Under the pieces are notes generated by a model. The model worked only from the letters and a program-made list of their open reading frames with translations. It was not told the DNA's origin and made no database searches. DNA of 64,000 nucleotides, taken from contig CANQTO010000008.1 of assembly GCA_947626785.1 (NCBI GenBank), positions 1 through 64,000 of the forward strand, read 5' to 3'. Shown piece after piece: positions 21,780 through 54,303 of the stretch (the first letter of the stretch is position 1; every line of letters begins with the position of its first letter). The DNA is from an uncultured Oscillospiraceae bacterium (GTDB lineage: Bacteria; Bacillota; Clostridia; Oscillospirales; Oscillospiraceae). A program made the position numbers and the translations under genes.

Positions 21780-21940
21780 GGAAACACTGAATAAATCGCC
21801 GCACGCATCTGGACGGCTGATTTTCCGCCATATTTAGTCTCGAAATCTTGAAATACACAAAGTATTCCTGCGATTTCTCGCCGTCATCTGACGAAAAATC
21901 ATCTCGCCCATCTGCATACTTCGACTTAATCAGTGCTTCC
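21780..21940 (-). mobile_element. MITE-like element, copy 1 (161 bp)
   Basis: The ends GGAAACACTGAATAAATCG (21780-21798) and CGACTTAATCAGTGCTTCC (21922-21940) are inverted repeats of each other at 16 of 19 positions. CTAA stands on both outer sides (21776-21779 and 21941-21944), a probable 4-bp target duplication that includes the stop codon of the DUF4097 gene. The inside is the reverse complement of copy 3 at 53296, with the same length of 161 bp. No transposase is encoded, so it is non-autonomous. A small reading frame inside it (from 21848) is part of the repeat, not a gene. Confidence 0.85.
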
Positions 21941-40798: not shown

Positions 40799-41095
40799 GG
40801 AAGCACTGATTAAATCGAAGTATGCAGATGGGCGAGATGATTTTTCGCCAGATGACGGCGAGAAATCGCAGGAATACTGCGTCCTCACAAGCTTCGCTTA
40901 TTCGCTTCCGTGTATACACGAAAGCTCATTCACGCCGCTGCTCGTCCTTCCAAAATCAAAGCGTACGCTTTGATTTTGATAGGAAGAAGGAAGGAGCGGA
41001 TATGGAGCTTTCTGCTTCAGCAGGAAGCGGAATGGAGCGAGTTTCTTCTGACGCTCAGCCGCCCAGATGTATACGGCGATTTATTCAGTGTTTCC
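40799..41095 (+). mobile_element. MITE-like element, copy 2 (297 bp, expanded centre)
   Basis: The ends GGAAGCACTGATTAAATCG (40799-40817) and CGATTTATTCAGTGTTTCC (41077-41095) match as inverted repeats at 17 of 19 positions. The first 80 bases match copy 3, then the centre differs and is longer. It holds a perfect 28-bp palindrome at 40951-40978 with the centre GCGTACGC. The outer flanks TATA and CATA could be a decayed 4-bp target duplication. There is no transposase gene. A reading frame of the downstream transporter runs back into the element but has no start signal there. Confidence 0.78.
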
Positions 41096-51491: not shown

Positions 51492-53204
51492 ATGGCAAAA
51501 TTCAAACCCGGCGTCTATAAGGGCAAAGCTTACGGCAACGGCTACGACAGCAAGCCCAGCACGGTCATCGTCCAGGTCACCCTGTCGGAGGACCGGATCG
51601 AGGACGTGAAGATCCTGGAGCACGGCGAGATCAAGGGCGTGGGCTGGGGGCTGAAGACCTCCCCGGTGGAGACACTCCCCGGCGAGATCGTCAAGCACCA
51701 GTCCCTGGGCGTGCCCCCGGTGATCGGCGCGGAGAAGAGCTCCAAGGCCATCATCAAGGCGGCCACCAGGGCCATCTCCCAGTCTGGGGCGAAGATGTCC
51801 GCCCTGACGGCCCCCCTCCCCCGTCCGGCCCATCCGGATGAGGAGCGCAGCGTGGACTTTCTGATCCTGGGCGGCGGCGCCGGCGGTCTGGCCGCGGGCG
51901 TGCAGGCCCGGCAGGCCGGGGCCGACGTGCTGATCGTGGAGGCGGCCGGCGTCACCGGCGGCTCCGCGGCCCGCTCCGGCGGCAAGCTCATGGCCCCAGG
52001 CACCAAATGGCAGCGCGCGGTGGGCATTTACGACAGCCCGGACCTGCTGTACAAGTACATGATGGAGCAGGGCAAGGGCCTGGTGGACCCGGACAAGATC
52101 CGCTTCTTCTGCGACCGGGCCTACGAGAACCTGCTCTGGCTGGAGAGCTGCGGCTGGAAGTGCCAGGACGTGGAGCCCATCCATGAGAGCATCGTCCCCT
52201 GGCGGGTCTACAACAGCGAGGGCGGCTCCTACATGTCCGCCGGACAGGGCGGGCACATCACCTACGCCATGCACAGCACCTATGAGAAGCTGGGCGGCGA
52301 GATCGTCTTCGAGTGCGCCCTGAAGGAGCTCATCGTGGAAGACGGCGCGGTGAAGGGCGCGGTGTGCGAGTACGCCGGCGGCGGGACCCTGACCGTCCAC
52401 GCCAACAACGTCCTGCTGGCCACCGGCGGCTTCGCCGCCAACCGGGAAAAGCTGGAGGCCCTCTATCCCCAGATGAAGGGCTACTTCACCGACGTGCCCA
52501 AGACCAACGTGGGCAAGGGCATCGACGAGGGCATAAAGGCCGGCGCAAAAGAGTACGTCTCCCCCGGCGTACAGGTCAACTACATGAGCATCTCCTCCGC
52601 GTTCATCGGCATCAAGGAGGAGGCCGGTCTGATCGTGGACGCGGACGGCCGCCGGGTGGTCAACGAGTGGAGCTACCAGTATGTGGTGGGCGACGCGCTG
52701 ATGCGCACGAAGAAAAACCACGGCTGGTACGTGACCAGCGGCAAGGACAAATACGCCACGGTCCAGGCCGCCTTCCAAGCGGGCAAGACCTCCGACCCCA
52801 AGGACGTGTACGCGGACTCCCTGGAGGAGCTGGCCGGGAAGATGGGCGTGGACTACGCCGTCCTGAAGGCCACCGTGGACCGGTACAACGAGCTGGCGGC
52901 CAAGGGCGTGGACGAGGACTTCGGCAAGCCCGCCGAGTATCTGTTCCCCGTGGACGGGCCCAAGTACGCCGCGTTCTATTACACCCCCTGCGTCACCGTC
53001 ACCTTCGGCGGCCTGGAGACCGACCTTGTGGGCCGGGTGCTGGACGCCGGGGGCAAGATCATCCCCGGCCTCTATGCCACCGGTGAGACAGCCCCCAAGG
53101 GCATGTACGGCACCATCTACCCCGGCTGCGGCACCTCCATCGGAGCCGCCGTCCTCTGGGGCCGGGTCGCCGCCAAGATGGTCACCGGCCAGGCAGTTTT
53201 ATAA
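51492..53204 (+). CDS. FMN-binding domain / fumarate reductase-like flavoprotein
   Basis: A 570-residue reductase with an N-terminal FMN_bind domain (about 5-100) and a fumarate/urocanate-reductase-type FAD domain. The dinucleotide site is FLILGGGAGGLAAGVQARQA near 119, then GGSAARSGGKL, DADGRRVVNEW with the probable catalytic-region Arg, and the C-terminal GMYGTIYPGCGTSIGAAVLWG. FMN_bind domains usually carry SGAT for covalent FMN; here the segment reads SGAK, so covalent flavinylation is unlikely. There is no signal peptide, so it is probably cytoplasmic. Substrate unknown: relatives reduce fumarate, urocanate or other enoates. AAAGGAG lies 7 bases before the ATG. It is a single-gene unit. 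Confidence 0.87.
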   Translation: MAKFKPGVYKGKAYGNGYDSKPSTVIVQVTLSEDRIEDVKILEHGEIKGVGWGLKTSPVETLPGEIVKHQSLGVPPVIGAEKSSKAIIKAATRAISQSGAKMSALTAPLPRPAHPDEERSVDFLILGGGAGGLAAGVQARQAGADVLIVEAAGVTGGSAARSGGKLMAPGTKWQRAVGIYDSPDLLYKYMMEQGKGLVDPDKIRFFCDRAYENLLWLESCGWKCQDVEPIHESIVPWRVYNSEGGSYMSAGQGGHITYAMHSTYEKLGGEIVFECALKELIVEDGAVKGAVCEYAGGGTLTVHANNVLLATGGFAANREKLEALYPQMKGYFTDVPKTNVGKGIDEGIKAGAKEYVSPGVQVNYMSISSAFIGIKEEAGLIVDADGRRVVNEWSYQYVVGDALMRTKKNHGWYVTSGKDKYATVQAAFQAGKTSDPKDVYADSLEELAGKMGVDYAVLKATVDRYNELAAKGVDEDFGKPAEYLFPVDGPKYAAFYYTPCVTVTFGGLETDLVGRVLDAGGKIIPGLYATGETAPKGMYGTIYPGCGTSIGAAVLWGRVAAKMVTGQAVL

Positions 53205-53219
53205 AATAACAGCATCCAG

Positions 53220-53246
53220 CAGCGCCGGCAAACGCCGGCGCTGTTT
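53220..53246 (+). terminator. Intrinsic terminator after the flavoprotein gene
   Basis: CAGCGCCGGC (53220-53229) and GCCGGCGCTG (53234-53243) form a perfect 10-bp stem with loop AAAC, then TTTC. The U-run is short. Confidence 0.72.
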
Positions 53247-53263
53247 CATGTAAAGCTCCACTC

Positions 53264-53292
53264 TTGAAAAAGAGTGGGGGCAAGAGTATAAT
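53264..53292 (+). promoter_or_regulatory. Promoter of the FNT gene, just outside the mobile element
   Basis: TTGAAA (53264-53269), 17 bases, TATAAT (53287-53292). The MITE-like element starts at 53296, so transcription would begin within its first bases. The final T of the -10 is the first base of the TAAA duplication. A small hairpin CCACTCTT/AAGAGTGG spans the -35. Confidence 0.75.
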
Positions 53293-53295
53293 AAA

Positions 53296-53456
53296 GGAAA
53301 CGCTGAATAAATCGACGTGTGCAGATGGGCGAGATGATTTTTCGCCAGATGACGGCGAGAAATCGCAGGAATACTTTGTGTATTTCAAGATTTCGAGACT
53401 AAATATGGCGGAAAATCAGCCGGCCAGATGTATATGGCGATTTATTCAGCGTTTCC
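53296..53456 (+). mobile_element. MITE-like element, copy 3 (161 bp)
   Basis: Perfect 19-bp terminal inverted repeats GGAAACGCTGAATAAATCG (53296-53314) and its complement (53438-53456), with a further imperfectly matching 30 bases on each side. TAAA stands directly outside both ends (53292-53295 and 53457-53460), a probable target duplication. Inside it is the reverse complement of copy 1. The element lies wholly between the promoter and the ribosome binding site of the FNT gene. It has no transposase. Confidence 0.88.
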
Positions 53457-53484
53457 TAAACAAAAAACACGGGAGGACAAGCCT

Positions 53485-54303
53485 ATGCTGACACCGGCGG
53501 AATTTGTGGAGAACTATCTGGATCTGGGGGAGCGGAAGACCCAGGCCCCGGCCCTGCGGCTGCTGGTGCTGGGGGTGCTGGCGGGCTTTCTGGTGGGCTG
53601 CGGGGCCTGTGTGTCCAACACGGCCACCTTCGCTATCTCCAACGCCTCCGCCGCCCGGATCATCAGCGGCCTGCTGTTCCCCTTCAACCTGTTCATCATC
53701 GTCATGATGGGAGCCGAGCTCTTCACCGGCAACAGCCTCATCGCCATGGACCTGATGGCCGGCCGGGTGCGGCTGGGGGGCATGCTCCGCAACTGGCTGC
53801 TGGTCTACGCGGGCAATCTGCTGGGCGGCTGCCTGCTGGCTGCCGGCTGCGCCGCGGCGGGGCAGATGGATCTGGGCGGCGGGGCCCTGGGGGCCTACGC
53901 TATCAAGGTAGCCACCAACAAGTGCTCCCTGAGCTTTGGCCGGGCCTTCCTGCTGGGGATCGGCTGCAACATCTTAGTCTGCATCGCCGTCATGTGCTCC
54001 TCCTGCGCCAAGAGCGTCCCGGGCAAGGCGGTGGGCGTCTATCTGCCCATCAGCTTCTTTGTCATCTGCGGCTTTGAGCACTGCGTGGCCAATATGTACT
54101 ATATCCCGGCGGGGCTCTTCGCCAAGAGCGCCTATGCCGGCCTGGCCGCCGAGGCGGGGCTGGATATCTCCGCCCTCACCTGGGGCAACTTCCTGCTGGG
54201 AAACCTCCTGCCCGTGACCTTAGGGAACATCCTGGGCGGGCTCCTGGTGGCCTCCCTTTTGTGGTACGCCTACGGGAAGAAGACGGCCCGAGTGGCGGCG
54301 TGA
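53485..54303 (+). CDS. Formate/nitrite transporter (FNT) family channel
   Basis: A 272-residue FNT protein with six predicted helices. The family positions are seen: ATNKCSLSFGRAFLLGIGCN with the conserved lysine, and CGFEHCVANMYYIPAG with the pore histidine. FNT pentamers carry formate, nitrite, hydrosulfide or acetate and lactate; the subtype is not clear here. The start at 53485 follows GGGAGG; the frame runs back into the mobile element without a start signal. The 5' leader therefore includes the whole element. Two bases after the stop the GT39-like gene begins. Confidence 0.9.
   Translation: MLTPAEFVENYLDLGERKTQAPALRLLVLGVLAGFLVGCGACVSNTATFAISNASAARIISGLLFPFNLFIIVMMGAELFTGNSLIAMDLMAGRVRLGGMLRNWLLVYAGNLLGGCLLAAGCAAAGQMDLGGGALGAYAIKVATNKCSLSFGRAFLLGIGCNILVCIAVMCSSCAKSVPGKAVGVYLPISFFVICGFEHCVANMYYIPAGLFAKSAYAGLAAEAGLDISALTWGNFLLGNLLPVTLGNILGGLLVASLLWYAYGKKTARVAA

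Follow-up and report, generated by a model that had tools for sequence, protein, structure and literature searches.

A miniature IS5-type element with a hairpin core conserved on one strand lies in the leader of an FNT channel gene of an uncultured Oscillospiraceae bacterium

The Correia/NEMIS repeats of Neisseria are miniature inverted-repeat transposable elements (MITEs) of about 100-160 bp that lie by genes and, according to the portions of the reports consulted, form a hairpin in the co-transcribed RNA (PMC10969869, PMC2229807, PMC2649163); cutting of these transcripts by RNase III is reported in the same portions (PMC10969869, PMC2229807). In pneumococcus, the available excerpt on BOX, RUP and SPRITE describes small mobile repeats that are predicted to give structured transcripts and can extend the 5' side of operons (PMC3049150). 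Moreover, the enterobacterial ERIC sequence, a palindromic repeat of ~127 bp, is presented in the relevant excerpt as altering mRNA stability once transcribed, in an orientation-dependent manner (PMC2229807).

The element described here resembles Correia/NEMIS in being a small MITE beside a gene, with a hairpin in the predicted transcript of a formate/nitrite transporter (FNT) gene, but it is set apart from them, as far as the excerpted descriptions go, by its IS5-type ends and 4-bp duplication, by its host, and by the lack of any promoter found inside it. With BOX, RUP and SPRITE it shares the combination of small mobile repeat and predicted structured transcript, whereas no order-wide core inside several end types figures in the excerpted description of those repeats (PMC3049150). 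It is also, like ERIC, a palindromic repeat within a transcript, although sequence and host differ and the ERIC effect, in the part of the source consulted, concerns upstream transcripts and RNase E. IS5-group MITEs are comparable in that the 19-bp end is that of a 1,223-bp IS5-family element (L249), with a 4-bp YTAR-like duplication; the inside, however, is no deletion remnant of L249, and the IS loci tested lack the core. Our literature search found no work joining MITEs with Oscillospiraceae and, within the portions of the sources available to it, no description of the core.

The window analyzed is a stretch of 64,000 nucleotides from the draft genome of an uncultured Oscillospiraceae bacterium, in which the open reading frame list places the FNT gene (272 aa) at 53485-54303 on the + strand, the strand of all features below unless stated otherwise. 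Its product is identified as a channel by PF01226, and the NCBIfam FocA and fnt models match below their own cut-offs. Upstream, a -35 box TTGAAA (53264-53269) and a -10 box TATAAT (53287-53292), 17 nt apart, were read in the sequence and recovered by a promoter scan of positions 53150-53550 as the better of two sigma-70-like sites, with 11 of 12 consensus bases. The ribosome binding site GGGAGG (53471-53476) was recognized from the sequence and from the accessibility calculation. The gene upstream encodes a FAD-binding oxidoreductase, and a GC-rich, terminator-like inverted repeat with 10-bp arms and a 4-nt loop (53220-53243) stands between it and the promoter, seen in the sequence and, in a weaker form, in the repeat listing. 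In addition, the -35 box sits in a perfect 8-bp inverted repeat, CCACTCTT-GAAA-AAGAGTGG (53258-53277), of which genome G124 has a shorter version around the identical hexamer; this repeat could be an operator.

Genome BLAST, alignment of copies, flanking duplications and IS ends all identify positions 53296-53456 as a 161-bp IS5-type MITE, short, non-coding and bounded by perfect 19-bp terminal inverted repeats. The left repeat (53296-53314) was delimited by the sequence, the repeat listing and a 19-mer search, and the right one (53438-53456, - strand) matches the right end of L249 in 19/19 bases. Allowing up to 3 mismatches, the 19-mer end was counted five times in the window against 0.02 expected, and the arms pair over 37 nt with 81% complementarity. 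IS5 target duplications are 4 bp long and follow the consensus YTAR; the duplication seen here both in the sequence and in the duplication survey, TAAA (53292-53295 and 53457-53460), is off that consensus, and the target site included the final T of the -10 box. The FNT-leader copy differs from its sibling on contig C49 of the same genome at 4 of 161 positions, three of them in the left end, and these three changes make the left end the exact complement of the right one. No other copy among the 56 full-length ones has a fully perfect 19-bp repeat, and the left end looks as if it had been corrected against the other arm.

Those 56 copies come from 60 fetched regions and the window, the requirement being an alignment that starts at query base 1-4 and extends to base 157 or beyond. 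The genome itself gave 22 BLAST matches to the element, some of which arise from the palindrome aligning with its own opposite strand, and 40 of 61 same-genus genomes had a match. An exact 4-bp flanking duplication of the IS5 kind was found at 34 of the 56 copies, being CTAA or TTAG in 20 of these 34. A second full-length copy in the window (21780-21940, - strand, with the core on that strand) is flanked by TTAG. Among 30 loci bearing PF05598, one, L249 in the same-genus genome G015, had a pair of matching ends: its left end is similar to that of the element, TTAA stands on both sides, and its 331-aa transposase belongs to the IS5 family (NF033581, 295.4 bits against a cut-off of 140; PF01609 and PF05598). 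L249 thus represents an autonomous element with the same ends. The element and L249 share their ends only, and a leftover of the IS as the origin of the core was rejected on this ground and because the IS loci tested were without it. By these features the element is a non-autonomous IS5-type transposon, which was presumably mobilized in trans by an IS5 transposase; neither a PF05598 match nor a transposase match at 1e-60 was found in the 98 contigs of the draft genome, so the mover is not seen there.

Rearranged relatives were also observed. Three elements of the same genome keep the same ends, with the apex or right half swapped for other repeat-like sequence (window 40799-41095; L009, C18:38536-38832; L007, C74:7902-8169). 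On contig C72 of genome G206, a 73-bp element has the same ends and no core. Insertion of the core at the apex of an empty MITE was rejected from this junction, which is asymmetric, lies at a shared ATC and still has, on its right, some of the base of the core, and which therefore reads as a deletion and not as a precursor.

We then turned to relatives of the FNT locus. The FNT gene was present at E <= 1e-60 in 6 of 102 same-genus genomes, its own included. In the closest relative, G124 (protein 88% identical), TTGAAA-17-TATAAT is followed by AGGGAAAAAACACAGGAGGACGCGGCTATG and the leader is uninterrupted; the window leader without the element and one TAAA has exactly the length of the G124 leader, which is the empty site expected of a MITE insertion. 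Both hexamers are identical while 7 of the 17 spacer bases agree (counted by eye), and such identity within a diverged spacer supports a working FNT promoter. Genome G018 (FNT 79% identical) likewise has no element at its FNT gene. The gene upstream of the promoter differs between G124 and the window, so that orthology of the site rests on the FNT gene, leader and promoter. Named FNT relatives, up to 58% identical, belong mostly to Oscillospiraceae, which suggests Oscillospirales as the order. The core matched at none of 30 loci, made up of the FNT surroundings of 26 named relatives (26 of 80 loci) and four IS loci. The original prediction, a mobile element with perfectly complementary 19-bp ends lodged between promoter and ribosome binding site, is borne out by the G124 empty site with its identical promoter hexamers and spacing, and the predicted positions for promoter, element, GGGAGG and ATG all hold on direct reading.

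In our proposal, insertion at the TAAA overlapping the -10 box, with duplication of the target, would have left the promoter complete upstream of the element and the ribosome binding site complete downstream. Transcription would start at about 53299, 7 nt after the -10 box and 3-4 nt inside the element. The RNA fold of the element reaches -83.5 kcal/mol, whereas 200 shuffles average -38.4 (sd 3.4; z -13.3). At this locus the stable strand coincides with the sense strand of FNT, and the mRNA of this gene should therefore begin inside a nearly 161-nt hairpin of about -80 kcal/mol. In folds computed for starts 53297-53301, a start at 53299 would leave 16 of the 19 end pairs, together with every inner stem, able to form in a predicted long double-stranded stem like that of Correia/NEMIS transcripts. 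Hence the earlier expectation that the whole element is carried in the mRNA leader would hold for nearly the whole hairpin, given the predicted start; a promoter inside the element, which would have made the upstream one irrelevant, was sought by the scan and none was found. Overall, we consider it probable that an IS5-type MITE with a core conserved on one strand sits in the FNT leader, that the mRNA starts inside its hairpin, and that the insertion acts at the mRNA 5' end without blocking translation.

An insertion may also be neutral, landing at AT-rich, YTAR-like sites that are available and tolerated near -10 boxes and having no effect on FNT. The placement of other copies bears on this. 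Copies on contigs C49 and C46 of the same genome lie 21 and 19 nt ahead of starts preceded by a Shine-Dalgarno (SD) sequence, in front of genes for a Peptidase_S24 protein and a transglutaminase-like protein, respectively, and a TATAAT stands 15 nt before the C46 element. Contigs C93 and C91 share 77/77 bases at their ends, inside a copy, as would be expected if the two contigs join, as we suppose, and yet another copy lies between TTGACG-18-TATATT and the gene of a Suv3-type helicase. Among 55 copies (L174 was dropped, its flanks being equal to those of L173), 21 have an SD-preceded start, opening a frame of at least 80 codons, no more than 60 nt away, compared with 14 of 124 control YTAR sites (p = 7e-5); when a near-consensus -10 box within about 25 nt upstream is also asked for, 7 of the 55 copies and 4 of the 124 controls remain (p = 0.036). 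The controls come from the same flanks, some of them inside genes, and gene calls were heuristic, so these counts make leader placement common without proving it chosen. This frequency nevertheless counts against neutrality, as does the expectation that so stable a 5' hairpin would influence mRNA decay. On the other side, the FNT promoter and ribosome binding site are both intact, the other full-length copy in the window sits directly behind a stop codon, and the core is sense to the downstream gene in 13 cases and antisense in 8 (p = 0.38). The absence of orientation bias gives no support to selection on leader function. Taken together, a neutral insertion appears somewhat unlikely, and an effect at the 5' end of the FNT mRNA is preferred.

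The hairpin itself was examined across the family. The insertion at FNT did not create it: it is a conserved, one-strand property of the elements. The 161-nt group has 34 copies, of which alignment A1 took 32 (all but L174 and the 164-nt L186), and alignment A2 took 38 of the 56 copies. On A1, the window structure pairs 90.9% of cells, a share that drops to 36-49% once it is slid by 1-3 columns, and changes on both sides occurred in 17 of 62 pairs, with a covariation score reached by 0 of 500 shuffles; relatedness of the copies inflates the shuffle control, whereas the slid control retains it. RNA from the + strand was more stable than that from the - strand in 56/56 copies, with mean differences of 31 and 22 kcal/mol in the two copy groups, and the 51 majority-Watson-Crick pairs held 63 G-T versus 13 A-C cells. 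A mutational strand bias seems unlikely, because copies stand in both orientations to genes. G-T pairs are, however, also tolerated in single-stranded DNA, so that a one-strand fold need not act as RNA. The fold could accordingly serve single-stranded DNA, for instance in transposition or replication, with RNA effects as side effects, and the compensatory changes throughout the element, the copies in both orientations and the occurrence of G-T pairs in DNA hairpins all fit this explanation. As far as is known, by contrast, the ends on which IS5-type DDE transposases act are double-stranded.

A further point against the single-stranded DNA explanation comes from the distribution of the core, for which we built a covariance model, R1, from element columns 33-129 (97 positions). 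At the FNT locus, R1 marks the core at 53328-53424, sense to FNT, with 103.6 bits on the + strand and 29.2 bits on the - strand. Its 21 places in the genome comprise 6 in full or near-full element copies, 1 in a rearranged copy and 14 in other surroundings. Across the order, 44 of 147 genomes and 28 of 86 genera had a match at E <= 0.001; in a phylum-wide draw of 299, two matched at E <= 1e-6, each belonging to the window's family, under stricter filters and with few scored candidates per genome, so that weak matches are lost. The 82 loci compiled held 96 matches, 84 of them distinct, and in an alignment of these that is fitted to R1 and so leans towards the model, changes on both sides occurred in 28 of 29 pairs, with a covariation score of 0.644 against 0.09-0.19 when slid; the + strand folded better in 82/84. 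The outer arms were checked for 68 of the 96 matches, excluding locus repeats and second cores. Some of these cores are flanked by long complementary arms of other sequence, making elements of about 155-176 bp, and other matches showed no clear long terminal repeat. End types were accepted where at least two copies in one genome had common sequence stopping near the arms: CTAATACCCATTTAAAA in the same genome (L285/L286), TTAGAACCTGTTCCC in G206 (L294, L355, L356), AGGCAYCACCGCAT in G155 (L305, L358), and AGGGTRCCTCT in G172 (L319/L320), for which the limit was seen at one end. A need for single-stranded DNA leaves a core common to elements with different ends unexplained, and we regard this explanation as rather unlikely.

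No partner IS was found for the TTAGAACCTGTTCCC ends, which are present in 4 of 38 genomes; many such ends stand singly in G206 and relatives (L376-L392), with no second end in reach, and in several cases a truncated copy of the core element's right arm comes next. At other loci (L280, L283, L288, L306, L308, L325, L326, L327, L329), two cores face each other head to head, one on each strand, with about 20 nt between them, and whichever side transcription comes from, it encounters one core in sense. In L277, L279 and L282, a sequence resembling a tRNA T-arm (GGTTCGATCCC and variants) comes after the core; its complement is found about 140 nt to the left of the core, and the variants keep the pairing. 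The core as a known Rfam family was rejected: the whole window gave no match at the gathering score, positions 53250-53500 at E<=1 gave MIR7504 alone (22.3 bits against 83), and eight other core loci gave a neighboring SAM riboswitch alone. This riboswitch (RF00162, 76.6 bits, L276 1111-1205, - strand) lies 79 nt from the C37 core, on the opposite strand. Viral contigs, searched with one exact core pattern, and plasmids and phages, searched by blastn, gave no core match. Tentatively, and with less confidence than in the reading of the FNT leader, the core may be an undescribed mobile structured RNA family of the order, residing inside several unrelated end types and bringing functional hairpins into leaders, that of FNT among them, in which case the head-to-head loci would offer a sense hairpin from either direction of transcription.

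Returning to the effect at the FNT mRNA 5' end, the hairpin in the predicted transcript gives way to an open linker leading to the SD and then to the start codon. The mean unpaired probability of the SD is 0.46-0.49 with the element and 0.36 at the empty site, and that of the ATG 0.59-0.62 and 0.45. Of the effects raised by the original prediction, termination finds no support, nor does a change in translation in the form of a buried ribosome binding site. A hairpin acting as terminator or translation block, although very stable and at the very start of the transcript, is highly improbable, as TAAACAAAAAAC follows it without a U-run, the scan finds no sense-strand terminator, and accessibility of SD and ATG does not fall below that in the empty leader. 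With the SD accessible and the U-run missing, the likeliest consequence would lie at the mRNA 5' end, in stability or RNase III processing: the paired 5' end may be protected, or RNase III may cut in the hairpin, with translation unblocked. We infer that the insertion is tolerated and that it may shift the FNT level modestly.

MITEs in leaders are already known, and the FNT insertion itself is of local interest. What seems unexpected is the element's core: a hairpin kept by compensatory change on one strand, in many copies and genera across the order, while the outer ends change. A fold that is kept while ends change implies an influence exerted on the folded strand as well as on the transposase-binding ends. 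Why a selfish element must retain an RNA-like fold, and how one core enters different terminal repeats, become testable questions, for which the FNT leader and its natural empty-site relative G124 provide a clean test site of core function. In addition, the right arm of the FNT-leader element supplies an ATG, lacking an SD, in frame with FNT (53428-53484; a 291-aa open reading frame), and the C46 copy likewise supplies an ATG in frame with its own downstream gene.
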